Assembly: GCA_021775615.1 (NCBI GenBank)
Contig: JAJFHL010000130.1
Span: 1 to 34,807, forward strand
Direction of reading: 5' to 3'
DNA: 34,807 nucleotides
Origin: Hyphomicrobiales bacterium
GTDB taxonomy: Bacteria; Pseudomonadota; Alphaproteobacteria; Rhizobiales; JAJFHB01
The number at the start of each line of letters is the position of its first letter. The first letter of the stretch is position 1. The notes beneath the pieces are model-generated. The model did not search any database. It was not told where the DNA came from and saw nothing but the letters and a program-made list of their open reading frames with translations. Shown here piece after piece: positions 2,131 to 25,502 of the stretch. The position numbers were made by a program, and so were the translations under genes.

Positions 2131-3333
2131 ATGGCGCAATACTGGAAACTCAGAACAATTCGGAATAGAAAGCATCGCGCCCACGTCTCGCGGCGACTGC
2201 GTGCACTGCGCGAACAAATGAACGAACAGGTCACGAAGAAGACGAGCGAGCACGATCTTCGGCTTGCCACCTGGAATTTAATGCACTTCGGCAATGGCGG
2301 CGGATATTGGCGCAACACAGACGCGTTGCTCTACATTTCGGAGATCATCGACCACTTCGACTTGGTTGCATTACAGGAAATCAATACAAATCCCGAGCAA
2401 ATCGAGGACCTTGTGGAGCATTATCTCGGTTCCGAGTGGGACTACATAGTGACCGACACCACAGGCGGTGACCTTGGCAATGACGAGCGTATGGCATTCG
2501 TCTATCGAAAGGGCAAAGTTCAGTTCTCAAGGCTTGCTGGTGAAATCGTTCTACCCGACGGGCAGACGATTGTCGGTGAATCCGGCGTGACGAACACCAA
2601 GGAACATGAAAGCCATCATCAGTTCGCTCGGTCTCCCTTTGTGGTCGGCTTCCAATGCGGTTGGTTTGATTTCAAGCTCTGCACGGTTCATATCTACTTC
2701 GGTAACCCGCCCAAGCGTCCTGCCGCAATGTCCAAGCAGGAATACCGGCAGCTCAAGGCGGACTATATGACAATGCGCAAGACTGAAATCCGGAAGCTCG
2801 CGGAGTATCTGGCTGACCGTCAGAAATTGGAACGGAGGCGCGAACTCGCCTGGTTGAAGGAAAAAGGGTGGGACACCGAACAGAGCAAGGCAAACTACAT
2901 TCTGCTCGGTGACTTCAACATTGTATCCCCAGAACATGAGACAATGGCCGCACTCAAGGATGCCGGCTTTGAGATCCCCGAAGGGATGGAGGAATTGCCG
3001 ACCACGCTGGGCAAGACAAAGGCCTTCTACGATCAGATCGCGCATCGGCTGGGCGATCGGCGCGTGCAGCATCGTTTAAGCGGCAGCGTCAACTTCCGTG
3101 AGTCGGTGTTTCGCGAAGTGGATGCCGCGCACTACATCGACGTTGTCCGCGATCCCTTTGTCACGGGCGCAGAGAAGAACATTTCCCGCTCGCGCGAGCA
3201 GCAGGTGGCATACTTCAACAAGTACCGCTTCAAGAACCAGATGTCCGATCACCAGTTGCTGTGGTCGGCATTCAAGGTCGATTTGGCGGAGCGTTACCTT
3301 GAAAGCATCGAGAAAGAAGCGCTGTCAGATTAA
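2131..3333 (+). CDS. Endonuclease/exonuclease/phosphatase (EEP) family protein 2
   Basis: A 400-residue protein. Residues 1-40 are basic and probably helical. The EEP domain follows, with WN at 48-49, QE with E83, H187 in CTVHIYFG, GDFN at 260-263, D301 in FYDQIA, and SDH at 372-374. Between the histidine and GDFN there is a long charged helical insert (about 200-250, rich in K, R and E). This is unlike EEP protein 1, so the two are not a simple recent duplication. All core catalytic residues are kept. The ATG at 2131 has only a weak GCGAG upstream, and M30 at 2218 is a possible later start. The gene follows EEP 1 by 93 bp and probably shares its transcript. The substrate is unknown; a nucleic-acid or phosphoester target fits the fold. 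Confidence 0.78.
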   Translation: MAQYWKLRTIRNRKHRAHVSRRLRALREQMNEQVTKKTSEHDLRLATWNLMHFGNGGGYWRNTDALLYISEIIDHFDLVALQEINTNPEQIEDLVEHYLGSEWDYIVTDTTGGDLGNDERMAFVYRKGKVQFSRLAGEIVLPDGQTIVGESGVTNTKEHESHHQFARSPFVVGFQCGWFDFKLCTVHIYFGNPPKRPAAMSKQEYRQLKADYMTMRKTEIRKLAEYLADRQKLERRRELAWLKEKGWDTEQSKANYILLGDFNIVSPEHETMAALKDAGFEIPEGMEELPTTLGKTKAFYDQIAHRLGDRRVQHRLSGSVNFRESVFREVDAAHYIDVVRDPFVTGAEKNISRSREQQVAYFNKYRFKNQMSDHQLLWSAFKVDLAERYLESIEKEALSD

Positions 3334-6561: not shown

Positions 6562-6576
6562 TTAACCTAAATTTAA
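6562..6576. promoter_or_regulatory. CtrA-like box 1 upstream of nrdJ
   Basis: TTAA-CCTAAAT-TTAA matches the TTAA-N7-TTAA layout of sites bound by the alphaproteobacterial cell-cycle regulator CtrA. It lies in the 304-bp gap 6444-6747, which holds no gene. The gap is unusually rich in TTAA half-sites (also at 6543, 6556 and 6603) for such GC-rich DNA. Confidence 0.5.
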
Positions 6577-6587
6577 GGAAGGGCTTG

Positions 6588-6608
6588 CCGTTAACCGGTA
6601 CTTAACGG
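6588..6608. promoter_or_regulatory. CtrA-like box 2 upstream of nrdJ, inside a perfect inverted repeat
   Basis: TTAA-CCGGTAC-TTAAC fits the full CtrA consensus TTAA-N7-TTAAC. It is extended to perfect 7-bp arms, CCGTTAA (6588-6594) and TTAACGG (6602-6608). It starts 29 bp downstream of box 1 and about 140 bp before the nrdJ start. No cobalamin-riboswitch core or NrdR-box pair was recognised in the gap. Confidence 0.55.
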
Positions 6609-6747
6609 TACTCTTCGCGTGCGGTAGGAGACCGGGGACAACTGATAGAGAGCGCGGAAGGGTCGCCGCGTTCGACGGTTTCTCATCATTACTGTCCATT
6701 GAGGGCGCCGTGCCGCGGGTGCTTGGTGTTTGAGTTGGGGACGGCGG

Positions 6748-9700
6748 ATGCGAGTCGAACGGCGATTCACACTCGCGGGCGTTTCACCTTATGAAGCGGT
6801 CGCGTTTAAAAAGACCACTGGCGACATCCGGAATCCGGACGGCTCGGTTGTCTTCCAGCTGGAAGGCATCACGGTTCCGAAGTCCTGGAGCAAGGTGGCA
6901 ACCGACATCCTGGCACAGAAATATTTTCGCAAGGCTGGCGTTCCGGCCGCGTTGAAGCGGCTGCCCGAGGAGGCGGTTCCCGATTGGCTCTGGCCGTCGG
7001 TCGCCGATGAGGCGGCCCTTGAGGATCTTGCCCCGGAGGCGCGCACCGGCTCGGAACTCGATGCCCGTCAGGTGTTCGACCGTATGGCCGGCGCGTGGAC
7101 CTACTGGGGCTGGAAATGCGGCTACTTCGATGCCGAGAGCGATGCAGCCGCCTTTTTCGACGAAGCCCGCTACATGCTGGCGACCCAGCGCGCCGCGCCC
7201 AACTCACCACAATGGTTCAACACCGGTCTGCACTGGGCCTATGGCATCGAGGGTGACGGCGATGGCCATTACCATGCCGAGGCCGGCACCGGACGGGTGC
7301 GCCGATCCCGGACCCAGTATCTCCATCCCCAGACCCATTCCTGCTTCATCCAGTCGGTCGACGACAACCTGGTCAATGAAGGCGGCATCATGGATCTGTG
7401 GATGCGCGAGGCCAGGCTCTTCAAGCACGGCTCGGGCACCGGCACCAATTTCTCCAAGGTGCGCGCCAAGGGCGAGGCCCTGTCCGGTGGCGGCTGCGCC
7501 CCCGGCCTCGTGGCGCTGCTCAAGGTCGGCGACTGTTCCGCCGGTGTCCTGAAGTCGGCCGGCGTCACCCGGCGCGCCGCCAAGATGGTGGTGGTCGATG
7601 TCGATCACCCGGACATCGAGGAATATATCGACTGGAAGGTCGCCGAGGAACACAAGGTCGTGTCGCTGGTGACCGGCTCGGCCGTCACCGCGCAGCACCT
7701 CGACGCCATCATGGCGGCGGCGACCGACGCCTGCCGCCGCACCGGAGAGGCGTTCGACGTCAACGCGACACCGGTGCTCAAGGCGGCCATTGCCGCGGCC
7801 ATGGCCGCAAGGGTGCCTGAAAACTACATCCACCGTGTCGTGCATCTGGCGCGCCAGGGACACGGCCAGGTCAATTTCGAAGTTTGCGACGCCAACTGGG
7901 ATTCGAGCGCCTATGCCACGGTGTCCGGCCAGAACTCGAACAATTCGGTCCGGGTGTCGAAGGATTTTCTCGACGCGGTCGAACGCGATGCGCCATGGCA
8001 CCTGATCTCGCGCACCACCGGCAAGACGGTCCGCACGGTGAAGGCGCGCGACCTGTGGCACAAGATCGCCTATGCCGCCTGGTCGTCGGCCGATCCCGGC
8101 ATTCACTTTCACACAACCATCAACGACTGGCACACCTGCCCGCAGACCGCGCCGATCGAAGCGTCGAACTCGTGCTCGGAGTTCATGTTCCTGAACGATA
8201 CCGGAAGCACGCTGGCATCGCTCAACCTGATGAAGTTCCATGACGCCGAGGACGGCTTCGACACCGACGCCTACGCCTATGCGGCAAGACTGTGGACCCT
8301 GGTTCTCGAAATCTCAGTGGCAATGGCGCAGTACCCCTCGCGCCTGATTGCGCAGCGCACCCACGACTACCGCCCGATTGGTGTGGGTTATGCCAATCTC
8401 GGCGGTGTGCTGATGGCCTCCGGCGTGCCGTATGGTTCGCGCGAAGGCCGGGCCGTATGTGGGGCGCTCACAGCGATCCTCGCCGGCGTCGCCTATGCGA
8501 CGTCGGCCGAGATCGCCGCCGAGCTGGGACCGTTCAGAGGATACAAACGCAACGCTGCTGACATGCTCCGGGTCATTCGCAATCACCGGCGCGCGGCCCA
8601 TGGCGAACGCGGCACCTACGAGGCGCTGCACTGCGAGCCGGTGCCGCTCGACACCGACGCCTGCCCGGACGCACGGATGACCGAGCGGGCCCGTGATGCC
8701 TGGGACCGGGCGCTGGAGCTCGGGCAAGCGCATGGCTACCGCAATGCCCAGGCAACGGTCATCGCGCCAACCGGCACGATCGGCCTGGTGATGGATTGCG
8801 ACACCATGGGCATCGAGCCGGATTTCGCGCTGGTCAAGTACAAGCAGCTTGCCGGCGGCGGCCATCTCAAGATCGTCAACCAGGTTGTGACCGACGGACT
8901 GCACGCACTCGGCTATGACGCGGGCGCCATCGACCGCATCGTTGCCTATGCCACGGGACGCAACACCCTGGAGAACGCGCCCGGTATCAACCACGAGGTT
9001 CTGCGCGCCAAGGGGTTTGGCAAACACGATCTCGCGCGCCTCGAGGCGGCCCTGACCGGCGCCTTCGATATTCGTGTCGCGTTCAACATCTGGACCCTGG
9101 GCGAAGCGTTCTGTGTCCAGAAACTCAGGTTCTCCGAGGATCAGCTGTTCGACCCTTCGTTCGACATGCTCGACGCTCTCGGCTTTTCGTCAAGCGACAT
9201 CGGGCGCGCCAATGCGTTTTGCTGCGGCGCCATGACACTGGAAGGCGCGCCGGATCTGGACCCGAAGCACATCGCGGTGTTCGATTGCGCTTCTCCCAAT
9301 GGCCGCTATGGCACGCGCTGCCTGTCTGTCGACAGCCATATCCGCATGATGGCGGCGGCGCAGCCCTTTGTGTCCGGCGCGATTTCCAAGACCATCAACA
9401 TGTCGAACACGGTGGCCGTCGAGGAATGTTCGCAGGCGTACATGTTGTCGTCCGAACTGGGACTGAAGGCCAATGCGCTTTACCGCGACGGCTCCAAGCT
9501 GTCGCAGCCGCTCGGCACTTTGATGTCATCGGCCCATGTCGACGCCGATGTCGACCGTATCGCCGAGATCCAGGTACCGGTGGAACTGCCGACCGTCGGG
9601 GAGGCGCTCGATCGCGTGCTGATGGATTTTGTTGATGCCGCCGACATCGAGGCGGTTTCCGGCGCGCGGCCGGCGCCGCGCGAGCGCGCCAGGTCTGCAG

Positions 9701-9756
9701 GTCGCCCCGACAAGGGCGATGACGGCGGCGGTCGCCGTGCGGCGGCGGGCAGCTGA
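6748..9756 (+). CDS. nrdJ: Class II (adenosylcobalamin-dependent) ribonucleotide reductase, C-terminally short and missing a redox Cys
   Basis: A 1002-residue protein that follows rhizobial-type NrdJ from its first residues (MRVERRFT) through to [14 protein letters not shown] (about 909-922). Active-site features seen: C199 in THSCFIQS (first redox Cys), N474/C476/E478 in NSCSE (thiyl-radical Cys with its Asn and Glu), and the APTGTIGLV loop. Two things are missing. The second redox Cys, expected 11 residues after the radical Cys as in Lactobacillus NrdJ (408/419), is S487 in DTGSTLAS. The usual C-terminal region of some 250 or more residues, with the TSCPD-type domain and zinc-ribbon cysteines that pass electrons from thioredoxin, is absent; instead a tail of about 80 residues ends R/G/A-rich. 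The next gene starts 9 bp later on the other strand, so the region is not hidden in another frame. The ATG at 6748 has GGGG 7 nt upstream; a TTG at 6730 is less likely. Confidence 0.88.
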
Positions 9757-9764
9757 ACTCAGCC

Positions 9765-11963
9765 TCAGCGCGTCGCGCTCTGCCGGAGACGCGGAAGATC
9801 GACGACCGTGGCTTGGGCATCGCCCAGCAGCTTCTGCCTGAACTCGCCGACCGGCACGGGCGGACTGAAGTAAAAGCCCTGATACTGATGGCAGCCGCGC
9901 TCCCTCAGCCATTCGAGCTGTTCGACTTCCTCAACCCCTTCGGCAACGATGTTCACATCGATCAGCTTGCACATTGAGATGATCAGTTCAGTGATCGCGC
10001 TTGTCTTGTTCAGGTCGCGGATGAACGATCGGTCGATCTTCAGGCAGCTGATCGGATAACGCTGCAAATAGGCGAGGTTCGAATAGCCGGTGCCGAAGTC
10101 GTCGACCGCCAGGTTGAACCCCATTTCATGCAGTTGCTCCAGGGCGCTGATGATCCTCTGATTGTCTCCCATCAGCATGGATTCGGTGATTTCCAGGTCG
10201 AGCATGGCCGGGTCGCACCCCTCCGCCTCGACCGCCTTCTGAATGACCGGAATGAGGGCGTCGGAGCGGAACTGGCGCGGCGACAGGTTGATCGAAACCT
10301 TGATGTTGTGGCCCTCCTGCTCCCAGCGTTTTTGCTGCGCGGCAGCCTCTGCGATCACCCAGTTGCCGATGGGCTCCACCAGGCCGGTCTCTTCGGCAAC
10401 GGTGATGAAGGCCCCCGGCGCCAGCAGGCCACGGGTCGGATGGCGCCACCTGATGAGGGCCTCGGCGCCGGTGATGGCGTTGGTCTCGAACGATACCTGC
10501 GGCTGGTAGAACAGTTCGAACTGGTCGAGCTCGACCGCACGGCGCAGGCTGGATTCAAGCTCCAGACGGGTTTCCGCCTTTTCCCGCATATCGTGCGAGA
10601 AGAAGCAGTGCCGGTTGCGGCCTGAGTCCTTGGCGACATACATGGCCAGGTCGGCATGCTTCATCAGCGTGTCGATATCCTCGCCGTCGTCGGGAAACAG
10701 GCTGATGCCCATGCTTGGCGTGATCTCCAGAACATGCTCGCCGATGTAGATCGGATCGACCAGAAGAGCGCGGATCCGCTCGACCATCTGCAGCACGCTT
10801 TCACGGCATTTGATGTCGTGCAGGAAGACGATGAACTCGTCACCGCCAAGGCGGGTCACCATGTCTTCCTCGCGGCAATGGCTGCGCAGGCGCGCCGCAA
10901 CCTCGATCAAAAGCTTGTCGCCGACCGCGTGGCCGAGCGAATCGTTGATATTCTTGAAATTGTCCAGGTCGATGAAAACGAGGCCCAGCTTCTGGGCTGC
11001 TGCGGCGGCGCCCTCCAGTCTGTCGGCCAGTTCGTTCTGCAGGTAGGTCCGGTTCGGCAGGCCGGTCAGCACATCGTGAACAGCCAGATACTGCGACTTG
11101 CGCTCGGCTTCCTTAAGGTCGGAAATGTTGACCTCGCTGATCAGGATCGCCGGTGTGCCGTTGACCGCGTCGCGGCTTTCGCGGGCATTGATTTCGTGCC
11201 ACCGCGGTCCCTCGTCGGTGTCCACCCGGGCGACCAGGTTGGCGATGCCGTTGAGTTCCAGTGCGTCCAGCAGGGTCTTGTAGTCGTGCTCATCCATGAA
11301 CCGGTCGGGCAGGGAGTGCATGCCGTCGCGGTAAGACGCCCTGGCGGCGGGGTTGTGGTAGAGCGAGTTCCCGTCCATGTCGTACAGAGAAATCATCACC
11401 GTGGTGTGCAAAAGCGCCTGCGCGCTGCGCAGCGTATCGGGCGCATCGGGCCGCTCCTCGATGCCCTGACAGAACATGGCCATGCGGCCATCGTCGAGGC
11501 GGAGGCCGGAAAAGATGCACCGCGTGGTGCTTGGCGCACCGTTTGGATAGAGTGTCCAGAGTTCGGTGAATGATGCGCCGGTTTCGAAATCACGCTGGTA
11601 CTGCTTGAGGCGCTGCGCAACCGTCGGCGACATCTCTTTGCTCATAGCCCGTGCGGTCAGCTCTTCCAGAGAGTCGGCGCGCCACAGCTTCAGAGCGGCC
11701 GGATTGGCCCAATGCACCTTGCTGTGGTCCGTATCGAACACCCATACCGGGGTCACGATCCGGTTGAAACTCTCAAGATAGTCCGCCAGCGGCATATCCG
11801 GCCGCCGTTCCGGGCATTGCAGTTCAAGCCCGGCGCCTTCGGCCAGGACAGGGTAGTTGTCAGACCCGTCATCGGTTATGAGCGATTTGGACGCCGATAG
11901 CGTCGCCCCCGGCGGTGCTGAGCCGCCGGCGTCTGGTGCAGGTGATGTCTGTCCCCCGGTCAT
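9765..11963 (-). CDS. PAS-GGDEF-EAL cyclic-di-GMP protein
   Basis: A 732-residue protein. After a flexible N-terminus (1-55) come two PAS-like sensor regions (about 58-175 and 185-285), a GGDEF domain with an intact GGDEF at 373-377, and an EAL domain with EAL at 501-503, DDFGTGYSNL, KIDRSFI and AEGVE. Both catalytic signatures are intact, so it could both make and break cyclic di-GMP; the PAS regions probably choose between the two. No membrane segment is seen, so it is likely cytoplasmic. Its ATG lies 4 bp after the stop of the glutathione transferase gene, so the two form an operon with probable translational coupling. A CtrA-like box precedes the operon. An internal start at M57 is possible but has less support. 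Confidence 0.9.
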   Translation of the reverse strand: MTGGQTSPAPDAGGSAPPGATLSASKSLITDDGSDNYPVLAEGAGLELQCPERRPDMPLADYLESFNRIVTPVWVFDTDHSKVHWANPAALKLWRADSLEELTARAMSKEMSPTVAQRLKQYQRDFETGASFTELWTLYPNGAPSTTRCIFSGLRLDDGRMAMFCQGIEERPDAPDTLRSAQALLHTTVMISLYDMDGNSLYHNPAARASYRDGMHSLPDRFMDEHDYKTLLDALELNGIANLVARVDTDEGPRWHEINARESRDAVNGTPAILISEVNISDLKEAERKSQYLAVHDVLTGLPNRTYLQNELADRLEGAAAAAQKLGLVFIDLDNFKNINDSLGHAVGDKLLIEVAARLRSHCREEDMVTRLGGDEFIVFLHDIKCRESVLQMVERIRALLVDPIYIGEHVLEITPSMGISLFPDDGEDIDTLMKHADLAMYVAKDSGRNRHCFFSHDMREKAETRLELESSLRRAVELDQFELFYQPQVSFETNAITGAEALIRWRHPTRGLLAPGAFITVAEETGLVEPIGNWVIAEAAAQQKRWEQEGHNIKVSINLSPRQFRSDALIPVIQKAVEAEGCDPAMLDLEITESMLMGDNQRIISALEQLHEMGFNLAVDDFGTGYSNLAYLQRYPISCLKIDRSFIRDLNKTSAITELIISMCKLIDVNIVAEGVEEVEQLEWLRERGCHQYQGFYFSPPVPVGEFRQKLLGDAQATVVDLPRLRQSATR

Positions 11964-11967
11964 GCGG

Positions 11968-12588
11968 TTACGCGGCCTCGGCGAAGTCCATCATCGGCAG
12001 GAAGCCGTCGCGCGCCTCAACGCGCGCAATCCAGGCGCAAACCGCCGGATATTTGGCCATGTCGAACTCGCCTTCGCCGGCCACATGGGTGTAGCCGAAC
12101 AGGCCGATATCGGCGACCGTATAGCGGTTACCCACCAAAAAGTCGTTCTTGCTCAGGTGATCATCCAGCATTTTCAATGACTTGGCACCGCGCTCATGCC
12201 ACGTGGCAATCTCGGTTTCGCGCTCAGCGCGGCCCTCCGGCATGATTGAGATCCAGAAGCGTGCGGGCGAGATGTAGGGTTCGTGGCTGGATTGCTCCCA
12301 AAACAGCCATTCATTGACGCGCATGCGCTCCTGTGCGGTCTGCGGCATCAGATGAGAACCTTCTGCCAGATGCAGCAGCATGGCATTGGATTCGCCAAGG
12401 CCCTCGCCGTTCGGCAGCACCAGATAAGGCACTTTTCCGTTCGGGTTGATCGCGAGGTATTCCGGGCTTTGCGTTTCACCCTTCAGAACATCGATCATCA
12501 CGACGCGAAACGGAATGTTCAACTGGCGCATCAGCAATTGCACCTTGTAGCAATTGCCAGAGCCAATTGTGGCGTAAAGTGTATACAT
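11968..12588 (-). CDS. Glutathione S-transferase family protein
   Basis: A 206-residue, full-length cytosolic GST. The N-terminal thioredoxin-like domain (1-80) has NCYKVQLLM at the glutathione end, the cis-proline segment NGKVPYLVLPNG, and ESNAMLLHLAE for the gamma-glutamyl contact. The C-terminal helical domain (88-200) includes the N-capping motif region YTVADIGLFGYTHVA. It may conjugate glutathione to electrophiles or have another thiol-transfer role. GGGGAGG lies just upstream of the ATG. It is the first gene of a two-gene operon with the PAS-GGDEF-EAL protein, an odd pairing whose reason is not evident from sequence. Confidence 0.88.
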   Translation of the reverse strand: MYTLYATIGSGNCYKVQLLMRQLNIPFRVVMIDVLKGETQSPEYLAINPNGKVPYLVLPNGEGLGESNAMLLHLAEGSHLMPQTAQERMRVNEWLFWEQSSHEPYISPARFWISIMPEGRAERETEIATWHERGAKSLKMLDDHLSKNDFLVGNRYTVADIGLFGYTHVAGEGEFDMAKYPAVCAWIARVEARDGFLPMMDFAEAA

Positions 12589-12675: not shown

Positions 12676-12690
12676 TTAAGGCTGGTTTAA
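12676..12690. promoter_or_regulatory. CtrA-like box upstream of the GST/GGDEF-EAL operon
   Basis: TTAA-GGCTGGT-TTAA has the TTAA-N7-TTAA spacing of CtrA sites. It is about 90 bp upstream of the GST start, in the 170-bp gap between that operon and the end of the hotdog hydratase gene. The half-sites lack the following C of the best CtrA sites on the plus strand. Confidence 0.4.
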
Positions 12691-14936: not shown

Positions 14937-14958
14937 ATATTGAATGAACGTTCAATAT
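14937..14958. promoter_or_regulatory. TetR-type palindromic operator at the start of the Rieske gene
   Basis: Perfect 8-bp arms ATATTGAA (14937-14944) and TTCAATAT (14951-14958) flank TGAACG. The inner 14 bases, TGAATGAACGTTCA, resemble the palindrome TGAACGTCCGTTCA in front of the TMADH-like gene (21393-21406). The site covers the ATG at 14944 and would block either transcription or initiation. Confidence 0.55.
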
Positions 14959-16167
14959 TATAGCCGAGCCAATCCCATGACCGCGCAGACCTCTCTCCAA
15001 ACAGCATCGCTTTCTTCGGTTCCCGAGGACTGGGACCGGAGCGGCCTGCCGCCATGGACCTACAACAACACCGAATTGCTGGAGTTGGAAAAAGAGCTGC
15101 TGTTTCGATGCCACTGGCAGCTCGCCGGCCACGCAGCGAACATTCCCAACCCGGGTGACTTCCTGACCTTCGACATCGTCGGCGAGCGTGCTCTCGTGCT
15201 GCGCGGGCGCGACGGCGTGGTGCGGGCATTCCACAATGTCTGCCGCCATCGCGGTTCGCGCGTGGTGGCCGAAGAACACGGCACCTGCAAGTCAGCCCTG
15301 TTCTGTCCGTTTCACGGCTGGTCCTTCAATCTCGACGGCACCTTCCGCTCGGCGCCGATGCCGCGCAGCCTGCCCGAGCTCGATCCGGTCGAACACGGCC
15401 TCATTCCTGTGGAAATGGAACTGTGGCACGGCTTCATCTTCATACGCTTCAAGCCCGGGCCCCAGCCCGCAATCGCCGAGATCATGGCGCGCCACGAGCA
15501 AGAGATCGCCCCCTACCGGCTGGACGACCTGGTGTGCGACGGCGGCTTCTGGCAGGACGACATCGCGGTCAACTGGAAGTGCGTCCGCGACGTCGATAAC
15601 GAGGGCTATCACGTTCCCATGGCCCATCCCGGCCTGCAGGACCTTTACGGCAAGCACTATTACGACGAGCCGATCGAGGCGGGCACGTCCCGGTCATTCG
15701 CGACATTCAATGAAAGCGATGCCAAGTTGTGGGGCGTCAGGCACTACAAGAAGGTGCTGCCGGAAATGCCGCATCTGCCGCCAAGCCACCGCGCCGCCTG
15801 GCTCTATATCGGCATTTTCCCCAACACGGTGATCGAATTTCATCCCGAAGGCATCTCCTACTATCAGGAGTTCCCGCAAGGCATTGCCGAAACCTCACAG
15901 CGCGGCGCCGGCTATACCTGGCCCGATCAGAGCCGCGAGGCCAACCTTGCCCGCTATCTCGGCAACCGCATCAACCGCGACACCCAGGACGAGGACGTCC
16001 AGCTCATCATCTGGTCGCATGAAGCCATGTCGTCGAGCGGTTACGAAGGGTTCATCCTGTCGGATCTGGAATACGGGGTTCGCAACTATCACGATGAACT
16101 GCGCCGTTTGATGCCCGTGTTCAACGAACGGACCGAGCCGCCGCCGGGAACGATTGCATTGCGGTAA
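14944..16167 (+). CDS. Rieske non-heme iron oxygenase, alpha subunit (quaternary-amine type)
   Basis: A 407-residue oxygenase component. Rieske [2Fe-2S] ligands: C100-R-H102 and C121-PF-H124. Mononuclear iron ligands: H223 and H228 in NEGYHVPMAHPG, and probably D351. The residue three before H223, which links the two metal centres and is Asp in most family members, is E220; a bridging Glu is known in carnitine- and betaine-oxidising members such as CntA and YeaW. N-demethylation or C-N cleavage of a quaternary amine is therefore a reasonable inference. No reductase partner lies in the window. The start is uncertain: ATG 14944 has GAGG 9 nt upstream but lies inside the operator; ATG 14977 would give 396 residues and leave the operator free. 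Divergent from the acyl-CoA dehydrogenase. Confidence 0.87.
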   Translation: MNVQYYSRANPMTAQTSLQTASLSSVPEDWDRSGLPPWTYNNTELLELEKELLFRCHWQLAGHAANIPNPGDFLTFDIVGERALVLRGRDGVVRAFHNVCRHRGSRVVAEEHGTCKSALFCPFHGWSFNLDGTFRSAPMPRSLPELDPVEHGLIPVEMELWHGFIFIRFKPGPQPAIAEIMARHEQEIAPYRLDDLVCDGGFWQDDIAVNWKCVRDVDNEGYHVPMAHPGLQDLYGKHYYDEPIEAGTSRSFATFNESDAKLWGVRHYKKVLPEMPHLPPSHRAAWLYIGIFPNTVIEFHPEGISYYQEFPQGIAETSQRGAGYTWPDQSREANLARYLGNRINRDTQDEDVQLIIWSHEAMSSSGYEGFILSDLEYGVRNYHDELRRLMPVFNERTEPPPGTIALR

Positions 16168-18035: not shown

Positions 18036-18515
18036 TCATGTCCGCCGGATCGCGATCGCCTGCGAGGCGAAGTCCGGTGGCGGCAAGCTCGCGTGATCGG
18101 AAACCATTTTGCCGATCCTGGCCTGTACTGCCTCGCCAAAGACGGCGGACTTTGGCGCACCGTCTTGAATCACATGCAATTGCAGCGTCTCCTGCACCGC
18201 GAGCCGTTCGCCGCTCTGGCCGTGCAGCATCTCGAAGCGCACGTGCAGGCGCTTGTGGTCGGCATCGAGCAGGCGTGCGTTCACCTTGAGCGGCGCGGCC
18301 TCGTGCGCTTCCTTGAGGAAGAACTGATGCATCTCGATGACATAGAGCGTGCCCTTGACTTGGGCGCGGTAGGCCTCGTCCATGCCGAGGTCGACCATCA
18401 GGGCATCGATGGCGTAGCTGAAGACGAGGCCGTAATAGGCATCGCGCATATGCCTGTTATAGTCGACCCAGTCGGCATCGACGGAGGCTTCGTAGACGAT
18501 CGGAAGAGTGATCAT
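18036..18515 (-). CDS. Hotdog acyl-CoA thioesterase, carnitine-pathway-like
   Basis: A 159-residue 4HBT-type hotdog protein. The N-terminus VDADWVDYNRHMRDAYYGLV has the D-x-N-x-H-M pattern of acyl-CoA thioesterases (D18, N20, H22), and ARLLDADHKRLHVRFEM follows. Proteins of this shape are often found with, or fused to, carnitine dehydrogenase, where the related CdhB acts on betainyl-CoA. That similarity is from memory of the family pattern and does not prove the substrate. The gene lies 7 bp after the P450 and 12 bp before the Tat-exported protein in one operon. Confidence 0.78.
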   Translation of the reverse strand: MITLPIVYEASVDADWVDYNRHMRDAYYGLVFSYAIDALMVDLGMDEAYRAQVKGTLYVIEMHQFFLKEAHEAAPLKVNARLLDADHKRLHVRFEMLHGQSGERLAVQETLQLHVIQDGAPKSAVFGEAVQARIGKMVSDHASLPPPDFASQAIAIRRT

Positions 18516-23717: not shown

Positions 23718-25502
23718 TTACCCCATCGCCGGGCCGTCCACCTGCGGCAGGTCCTCGCGCACCCAGCTCTGGAACGCCCGCACCGCGATTTCCTTGTCGC
23801 CGAGCACGCCCGTGTCATAGGCCGATGTACCGAGCCCGCCCTGCACTGACGACACCAGGGCGCAGTCTTCCTTGTGGACCTGCCAGGTGATGCGCCCGCC
23901 GAGGAACCGGCAGGCCTTGATTTCCCGGCTCGCCCCCGGCAGTCCGTAGGTCCCGCATCTGAGCACTGAGCGCCCGGGCGCAACCGGCACGATGTGGAAG
24001 AAGTCCATCTGCTCGGGATATACATCGAGCGACACCGCCGGATAGAGGAAGAAGTAGCTCCATCGGTGCCGGGCCTCTTCGGGCAGGTGTTCCAGGTCGG
24101 GCAGAAGACTTGCGTAACGCTTCACCGACCAGTCGCCTTTCGGCTTGTCGCGCATGGCATGGCTGAGCCGCACCGCGCGGCGGGCATCGTCGGGTTCGCG
24201 GTCATAAGCCGGCGTCATCAGTCCGTAGAGACCCGGGTGGCCGGTCGGGAAATGATAGTCCTCGAGATAGTTGTCCCACACGTTCTTCCAGTCGGCAGTG
24301 ATCTCCTGCTCGTAGAACGGGGCGACCGGCTCCATGTCTTCAAAGCGGTAGGGGGCAAGTTCGTCCGCGAAGGGCGCGTAGCGTTGCGCCACGCTCGGGC
24401 CGTTGCCCGCGAACCGGATGAAGACCAGTCCCATGAAGATTTCCAGGTCCAGGGCACGCAGGCCGAACTGGCCGTCGTCGAACGGCGGAAAGGTCTTGCG
24501 TGACGCGATGGCCACCAGGTCGCCGGTAAAATCGAACGTCCATGCGTGATAGGGACACCGCACCCGGTGTTCGCACGAGCCCTTCGTGCCGCTCACCACC
24601 GCATGGGCCCGGTGCGGGCACACATTGTGGAAGGCCCGCAGTTCGCCATCCTCGCCGCGGATGACAAAGGCGCGCTCGCCAAGCCCGGTGAAGGTGAAAT
24701 AGTCGCCGGGCTCGCGCACATCGGAGACATGGCAGACGAGCTGCCATGCCGGCTTGTGGATCTGCTCGACTTCACGTTTGAAGAAGTCGTCCGAAGCATA
24801 GGTCCATGCCGGCAGCGTGCGGGGCAGGTCATCAGGCTTGGGCAATATGGCATCCGCGGGCCGCGTATCGGCAAGGTCCGGAAACAGATTGGCGAGATAA
24901 TCCCTGCAGGTCGCCATCGCCGCCGAATGGTCGAACCCTGTCGGGTCGAGCAAAAGCATCTGCCATTGGGCATCGACCACGCCGGTAAGGCCAAGGGTCG
25001 CGGCATCCACGGCGATGGATGTGCCATGCTGTTTCGCCAGCTGTTCGATGAGGCTGCGAACCGCGGCTTCGAAGGCCTGGTCCGAATGGCCGCAGATCGA
25101 CAGGTAATCGTGCCGCGCCTGGCTCTCGCCCCAGAAGGCGTACCACACCGCGACGCGGCCCGGTTCGCAGATCTGCGGATCGAAAGCCGCCGAGACCAGA
25201 GCTATCAGAGCGTCTGCCGGCTCGTCACCGGCCTTTGCAATGGCCGCCTCGCAGACATCGGCGAACTCGTCGGCGACAAACTGCAGCGTTGCGGTCAGCA
25301 GCGCCTGTTTGCTGTCGAAGTGAAAGTTGATCATTGCGGCTGTCAGGCCGACCTCGGAGCCCACCTTGCCCAAAGTGACGTGCGACAGGCCGTGTTCGGC
25401 GATGGCCGAGATGGTGGCGTGGATCAGTTGTTCGCGGCGCACGCCCTGCGGCTGCCGCGCCGGGTCGGAACCGGCGATTTTATCGAGCATGGGTCTGTCC
25501 AA
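23718..25502 (-). CDS. TetR repressor fused to Rieske non-heme iron oxygenase
   Basis: One open frame of 594 residues holds two full proteins. Residues 1-212 are a BetI-like TetR regulator (HTH about 24-70, with GLTAAMINFHFDSKQALLTA). Residues 228-594 are a Rieske oxygenase alpha subunit: C295-P-H297 and C316-PY-H319 bind the [2Fe-2S] cluster; H417 and H422, with probably D546, bind the catalytic iron. As in the other Rieske protein of this window the bridging residue is Glu (E414), as in carnitine/betaine oxygenases. A short proline-rich linker (about 213-230) joins them. No stop or frame change lies at the join, and no good internal start was seen; M196 is the nearest candidate but lacks a ribosome site. 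An AT-rich palindrome precedes the gene, so the protein may repress its own synthesis. Divergent from the cupin/MATE operon. Confidence 0.88.
   Translation of the reverse strand: MDRPMLDKIAGSDPARQPQGVRREQLIHATISAIAEHGLSHVTLGKVGSEVGLTAAMINFHFDSKQALLTATLQFVADEFADVCEAAIAKAGDEPADALIALVSAAFDPQICEPGRVAVWYAFWGESQARHDYLSICGHSDQAFEAAVRSLIEQLAKQHGTSIAVDAATLGLTGVVDAQWQMLLLDPTGFDHSAAMATCRDYLANLFPDLADTRPADAILPKPDDLPRTLPAWTYASDDFFKREVEQIHKPAWQLVCHVSDVREPGDYFTFTGLGERAFVIRGEDGELRAFHNVCPHRAHAVVSGTKGSCEHRVRCPYHAWTFDFTGDLVAIASRKTFPPFDDGQFGLRALDLEIFMGLVFIRFAGNGPSVAQRYAPFADELAPYRFEDMEPVAPFYEQEITADWKNVWDNYLEDYHFPTGHPGLYGLMTPAYDREPDDARRAVRLSHAMRDKPKGDWSVKRYASLLPDLEHLPEEARHRWSYFFLYPAVSLDVYPEQMDFFHIVPVAPGRSVLRCGTYGLPGASREIKACRFLGGRITWQVHKEDCALVSSVQGGLGTSAYDTGVLGDKEIAVRAFQSWVREDLPQVDGPAMG

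Follow-up and report, generated by a model that had tools for sequence, protein, structure and literature searches.

A short class II ribonucleotide reductase paralogue of Hyphomicrobiales with a broken redox cysteine pair, CtrA-type promoter boxes and a neighbouring PAS-GGDEF-EAL gene

A gene in this Hyphomicrobiales genome, termed nrdJ-S here, encodes a short paralogue of class II ribonucleotide reductase (RNR) that has kept the radical cysteine of its relatives and lost cysteines through which such enzymes receive electrons. Our favoured reading, to which we assign a probability of about 0.45, is that nrdJ-S is a repurposed RNR paralogue that would be radical-competent, would lack self-re-reduction, and would be controlled by CtrA and tied to a c-di-GMP/GST module. 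The loss of the electron-supplying cysteines, the c-di-GMP enzyme encoded next door and a CtrA-type promoter together indicate that its role is probably other than ordinary DNA-precursor synthesis. The main rivals to the favoured reading are that nrdJ-S performs a radical reaction without reduction or that it serves as a regulatory subunit, with formate-dependent reduction and the decay of a duplicate being less likely.

Redox residues and C-terminal tail of nrdJ-S

The window, i.e., the whole stretch of 34,807 nucleotides that was analysed, is an entire contig (C35) of a 6.26-Mb assembly that comprises 392 contigs and is 96.65% complete. nrdJ-S (6748 to 9756, plus strand) is an intact open reading frame for a protein of 1002 residues, running from an ATG at 6748 to a stop codon that ends at 9756, with an in-frame TTG at 6730. 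The only families found in the protein are PF02867 (the barrel, 382.1 bits) and PF08471 (the N-terminal domain, 140.9 bits). nrdJ-S passes the cut-offs of the broader profiles TIGR02504 and NF005122; against NCBIfam NF005736 it scores 1553.7 bits, below the curated cut-off of 1737, and the match is partial, ending at profile position 942 of 1222.

In class I and class II RNRs, a beta-A/beta-F cysteine pair supplies two electrons, and 3175 of 3347 class II sequences carry an NPCxE finger loop (PMC9669993). The first-pass annotation had listed a radical Cys476, a first redox Cys199 and a serine at the place of the second redox cysteine, and the codons, all on the plus strand, bear this out. The beta-A redox cysteine, Cys199, is kept (7342 to 7344; TGC, read directly), radical Cys476 is also encoded by TGC (8173 to 8175) within the finger-loop motif N474-S475-C476-S477-E478 (8167 to 8181; canonical NPCSE), and an AGC codon (8206 to 8208) places Ser487 where the beta-F redox cysteine would be. 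In the alignment, position 487 is Cys in 29/29 full-length, canonical relatives and Ser or Thr in 10/10 members of the group called clade A below; a sequencing error at 8206 to 8208 is excluded in practice because Ser or Thr recurs at this position in nine other loci.

The claim that the C-terminal cysteine region is absent holds as well, given that the NrdJ profile match stops early and that nrdJ-S lacks the canonical tail motif CGECGNFTMVRNGTCLKCDxCG. What is missing is a C-terminal region of about 300 residues that includes this cysteine motif; an 80-residue tail (9514 to 9753, plus strand), predicted to be disordered, is unrelated to the canonical domain. Homology to NrdJ ends near residue 924, which is also where the Rhodobacter sphaeroides 7b9p construct ends, and as 7b9p aligns over residues 1-924 of nrdJ-S, the fold is given by sequence. 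A structure prediction based on a 13-sequence alignment had a mean pLDDT of 70 with active-site loops below 50, and is therefore usable for the disordered tail only.

Compared with the alphaproteobacterial NrdJ (NF005736/PRK07562; 7b9p, 7b9q), to which it is homologous over residues 1-924 at about 60% identity, nrdJ-S shares the finger-loop radical Cys with its Asn and Glu as well as PF08471 and PF02867, but differs in having Ser487 for Cys, NSCSE for NPCSE, no C-terminal cysteine domain, CtrA-type rather than NrdR-like promoter boxes, and different neighbours. A further comparison is offered by a laboratory construct, the C-terminally deleted Stackebrandtia NrdJ (PMC5704485), which like nrdJ-S is missing the cysteine-rich tail; this construct retains both active-site redox cysteines and is active with DTT, whereas in nrdJ-S the pair is broken too, and as a natural state.

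These comparisons bear on the first-pass statement that the normal disulfide/thioredoxin route could not work as in known NrdJ. The part that concerns the internal disulfide stands, as that route cannot operate in nrdJ-S; the appeal to thioredoxin "as in known NrdJ" was too strong, since in the one zinc-finger-tailed NrdJ that has been studied neither thioredoxin nor glutaredoxin worked (PMC5704485). The same study found NrdJ without its cysteine-rich tail to be still active with the small thiol DTT (PMC5704485), which supports the favoured reading. Judged from its residues, we consider it reasonably probable that nrdJ-S is radical-competent and unable to re-reduce itself. By descent the predicted protein is a class II RNR; because of its broken redox pair, its missing re-reduction route and its score below the NF005736 cut-off, we do not count it among the functional class II RNRs, and annotating it simply as a "vitamin B12-dependent ribonucleotide reductase" would be misleading.

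Distribution, phylogeny and selection

Relatives of nrdJ-S were surveyed with degenerate DNA for N-S-C-S-E-[FY]-x-F-x-[DN]-[DN]-T, a pattern derived from early clade members, so that diverged members may escape the counts given here. Matches were found in 13 of 397 Hyphomicrobiales genomes, representing ten families, and in none of about 380 sampled alphaproteobacterial genomes outside this order; even inside one genus the short gene is patchy, being present in one of five genomes around Labrys. In a collection of 85,000 species, the pattern matched nine Hyphomicrobiales-type records, including Labrys okinawensis, Pannonibacter phragmitetus and P. indicus. The clade motif was without a match in a viral contig collection searched for phage carriage. 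Two other hits were set aside: a Dyadobacter record (L056), which the pattern also matched in the collection of 85,000 species, keeps both redox cysteines and served as an outgroup only, and L084, on plasmid pVL1_2 of Methylobacterium indicum, has all cysteines and canonical motifs, which rule it out as a clade member. The L084 gene encodes a 1122-residue NrdJ and lies amid phage-like genes (dnaQ, a YqaJ recombinase gene, thyA, and genes for MazG and TerB/TerC). In the literature covered, mostly without subscription journals, we found no description of an nrdJ-S subfamily or of an nrdJ-S/GGDEF-EAL gene pair, a weak indication that the subfamily has not been described before.

The short copies form one clade, with a support of 0.999 for the core (mosaic copy L035 left out) and of 0.98 on residues 1-540 with L035 included; the nrdJ trees disagree on the placement of the Pannonibacter and G046 copies. 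Ten copies, designated clade A, have Ser or Thr at position 487, while two Pannonibacter copies keep Cys487 and have Cys199 replaced (HGSVILSV vs HACFIQSV). The redox pair is thus broken in 12 of 13 short copies, through loss of either partner, and this supports the favoured reading, as does the retention of Asn474, Cys476 and Glu478 in all 13 despite a mean internal identity of only 57% in clade A (vs 76% for canonical NrdJ). The finger loop is NSCSE, with Ser475, in 13/13, in place of canonical NPCxE. None of the 12 copies whose 3' end is known has the C-terminal cysteine domain; L040, which runs off its contig, is outside this count. Together with the purifying selection described below, this absence also speaks for the favoured reading. 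An alignment of relatives, proposed in the first-pass annotation as a check on S487 and the short tail, finds Ser or Thr at 487 throughout clade A and the shortened C-terminus in every copy whose 3' end is known. The thirteenth copy counts against the favoured reading: L035 (7480-10869 of its locus, genome G046) retains both redox cysteines. Its N-terminal half is diverged and clade-like, and most of its C-terminal half matches the canonical NrdJ of G046 itself at 97-100% identity, a mosaic that suggests gene conversion between paralogues.

With regard to selection, Nei-Gojobori dN/dS was about 0.24 for the window copy and L034 and 0.14 for the Pannonibacter pair; the canonical nrdJ copies of the first two genomes gave 0.11, and in distant pairs the synonymous sites approach saturation. 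In addition, canonical NrdJ and the Ser/Thr copies share 214 invariant positions. Changes common to all of clade A are concentrated at about 255-273, 475-488 and 529-551, the first of which we take, by homology, to be the dimer helix and specificity loop. By these sequence measures, selection on the short gene is relaxed but purifying. The first-pass annotation had also raised a decaying copy, i.e., a duplicate of canonical nrdJ retained by chance, and the faster evolution of the short copies (57% vs 76% mean identity) and their presence in only 13 of 397 genomes of the order would fit such decay. We nevertheless regard it as very unlikely, as the frames are open over 977-1131 codons in ten families, neighbours, promoter boxes and Ser475 (13/13) are conserved across these families, and dN/dS values well below 1 disfavour a pseudogene.

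Neighbouring genes, promoter boxes and other RNRs

Tail to tail with nrdJ-S, across a gap of 8 bp in which no convincing terminator was seen between the convergent genes, lies a gene for a 732-residue PAS-GGDEF-EAL protein (9765 to 11963, minus strand) with intact GGDEF, I-site RxxD and EAL motifs. Next to it, on the same strand, is a GST-like gene for 206 residues (11968 to 12588, minus strand). A PAS-GGDEF-EAL gene, encoding about 690-730 residues, adjoins 9/9 Ser/Thr nrdJ copies that have flanking sequence on that side; most pairs lie tail to tail at a distance of 6-90 bp, which widens to about 400 bp in L082, and Labrys shows a second arrangement, in which the PAS-GGDEF-EAL gene is upstream of the short nrdJ on the same strand. 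Most linked proteins have an intact GGDEF and an intact EAL motif, the exceptions being one short motif unmatched by a simple pattern in Labrys and one sequence cut by a contig end. In Pannonibacter and G046, the ortholog lies elsewhere in the genome and not beside the short nrdJ.

An ortholog recognised by its PAS part was present in 8/8 short-copy genomes vs 5/53 others (Fisher p about 4e-7, kinship ignored), and also in five further short-copy genomes; in the five genomes with the ortholog and without a short nrdJ, neither a GST gene nor nrdJ is near it. The GGDEF-EAL tree echoes the main groupings of the nrdJ tree, with which it largely agrees, and the orphan GGDEF-EAL of G039 nests among linked ones. 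From the matching trees and this nested orphan, the module looks old, with later losses and separations in places. The Ser/Thr change and the gene linkage may reflect few evolutionary events, and the counts of neighbours and boxes ignore kinship, which weighs against the favoured reading. A functional link between nrdJ-S and the GGDEF-EAL protein appears likely from gene order and co-occurrence.

In nine genomes a GST gene lies next to the GGDEF-EAL gene, with split contigs in two of these. Two points concerning it count against the favoured reading: GST is a generic family, the best curated match of the window protein being a GSH-dependent disulfide oxidoreductase at 71.9 bits vs a cut-off of 332, and no GST gene was found next to the Labrys or Pannonibacter copies.

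TTAA-N7-TTAA is the CtrA consensus, and three such sites are present in the window vs 0.03 expected. Two precede nrdJ-S on the plus strand, TTAACCTAAATTTAA (6562 to 6576) and TTAACCGGTACTTAA (6591 to 6605), 186 and 157 bp upstream of the ATG, respectively, and the third, TTAAACCAGCCTTAA (12676 to 12690, minus strand), lies about 100 bp upstream of the GST start. Within 300 bp before the start codon, an exact CtrA-type site occurs in 8 of 12 short copies, between -101 and -189, vs 0 of 29 canonical nrdJ genes (p 5e-6, kinship ignored). NrdR-like boxes such as ACACTATATTTAGTGT show the opposite distribution, being found in 18 of 30 canonical nrdJ promoters (e.g., at loci L006, L014, L023, L026 and L031) vs none of 13 short copies, a count that also ignores kinship and whose p value depends on the threshold (1.6e-4 at 12 matches, 0.02 at 13, 0.16 at 14). 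A CtrA ortholog with 85-87% identity was found in 9/9 genomes, including the genome analysed here (87%, contig C114), where TTAAC-N6-TTAAC gave 29 matches genome-wide vs 8 for a reversed control. No Rfam family, cobalamin riboswitches included, was found in the window. On the strength of these boxes, control of nrdJ-S by CtrA is quite likely, and the GGDEF-EAL and GST neighbours, the matching trees, the CtrA-type boxes in place of NrdR-like ones and the CtrA ortholog jointly support the favoured reading.

Elsewhere in the window, a predicted 594-residue reading frame with a TTG start (23718-25502, minus strand) would combine in one chain a BetI/TetR-type repressor (residues about 18-207) and the alpha subunit of a Rieske ring-hydroxylating oxygenase (about 253-584), which would be an unusual fusion of regulator and enzyme. 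A second Rieske oxygenase (14944-16164, plus strand) resembles glycine betaine monooxygenase, and a protein encoded at 18036-18515 (minus strand) is like the C-terminal part of carnitine 3-dehydrogenase; together they suggest betaine/carnitine metabolism in this region. Two neighbouring frames on the plus strand (481-2037 and 2131-3333) both match the endonuclease/exonuclease/phosphatase family, although the score of the first falls slightly short of the Pfam cut-off.

The first-pass annotation proposed a search for a second, complete RNR in the genome, and one is present: contig C263 encodes a complete NrdJ of 1322 residues with all cysteines, 61% identical to nrdJ-S. A further class II-type RNR (L044) is cut by the contig end on contig C304 (5752-6896); it scores above the cut-off for NrdJ_Z (TIGR02504, 453.7 bits vs 399.95), which rules out a class I NrdA. 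Together, C263 and C304 rule out that nrdJ-S is the only RNR of the cell. Among the 61 relatives searched, canonical NrdJ was detected in 8/8 short-copy genomes, although as pieces only in G002.

This co-occurrence bears on the possibility that nrdJ-S is a regulatory subunit that performs no turnover and binds nucleotides, adenosylcobalamin (AdoCbl) or canonical NrdJ, thereby tuning dNTP supply or signalling in non-replicating cells. CtrA-type promoters would suit expression in such cells, raised dNTP levels prolong G1 in Caulobacter (PMC12186491), and electrons cross between subunits in one NrdJ (PMC5704485). Pseudoenzymes, however, usually lose catalytic residues, while the radical-site Asn, Cys and Glu are kept in every short copy, and the clade-specific changes at 255-273 disfavour pairing with canonical NrdJ; we thus consider a regulatory role unlikely.

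Possible reactions and significance

Under the favoured reading, CtrA would control expression of nrdJ-S, presumably in a CtrA-active cell state, adenosylcobalamin would generate a thiyl radical at Cys476, and this radical would abstract the 3'-H of a bound ribonucleotide. As the cysteine pair is lacking in nrdJ-S, a small molecule may donate the electrons after entering the cavity that the lost tail leaves exposed. We propose glutathione in view of the conserved GST gene and the best curated match of its product, even if far under the cut-off; glutathione would pair with the remaining cysteine, and the co-encoded GST would help to clear the mixed disulfide, with the GGDEF-EAL enzyme as a putative signalling partner. 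That glutathione is the electron source is doubtful. In its most extended form, which we put forward tentatively, a B12-RNR subfamily without its own electron supply would join PAS-GGDEF-EAL and GST in a module under CtrA control, through which radical chemistry on nucleotides would be coupled to c-di-GMP signalling and the cell cycle, either by an active site supplied with glutathione or by a new product of non-reductive chemistry. The first-pass suggestions that nrdJ-S might use a different reductant, make something else or act in regulation stay live options.

A non-reductive radical enzyme would abstract the 3'-H and expel the 2'-OH without any reduction, releasing a 3'-keto-2'-deoxynucleotide, base and phosphates, or another product. 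Cys-to-Ser mutants of E. coli NrdA and L. leichmannii RTPR, which we take to resemble nrdJ-S in having an intact radical cysteine and one redox cysteine changed to Ser, show such decomposition; these mutants are engineered and self-inactivating, whereas the nrdJ-S state is conserved in nature. The pattern among the short copies, where either redox cysteine is dispensable and the radical cysteine is never lost, fits a radical-only reaction, and unreduced RNR intermediates are reported to decay to base, diphosphate and 2-methylene-3(2H)-furanone (PMC7321198). A stable enzyme would, however, need protection from the inactivation seen in the known mutants, and none of the neighbouring genes was recognised as a partner for making a new product, so that we rate this reaction as rather improbable.

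Formate-dependent reduction through the single beta-A Cys199, as in class III RNR, would match the arrangement in 10 of 13 short copies, where, as in class III NrdD, only the beta-A redox cysteine is left; class III RNRs conserve this cysteine only, and formate is the reductant in the best-studied cases (PMC9669993, PMC4390871). The formate route needs a finger-loop Met (PMC9669993), yet nrdJ-S has NSCSE, not MGCR, and further differs from NrdD in its B12-type ancestry and in having no glycyl radical/NRDD domain. The Pannonibacter short copies do not even have the beta-A cysteine, and a search of ten of these genomes found no class III NrdD, which bears on formate only indirectly; a formate route is accordingly a very long shot.

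To our knowledge, all known RNRs catalyse one overall reaction and differ in radical generation and in the source of their electrons. A lineage conserved with the radical step and without the electron relay would thus point either to a new way of supplying reductant or to a new radical reaction of nucleotides, and nrdJ-S may serve as a natural variant for probing the redox pair and the poorly understood C-terminal domain of class II enzymes. If confirmed, the link with a c-di-GMP enzyme and a CtrA-type promoter would tie nucleotide chemistry to the developmental switch of alphaproteobacteria in a way not reported so far.
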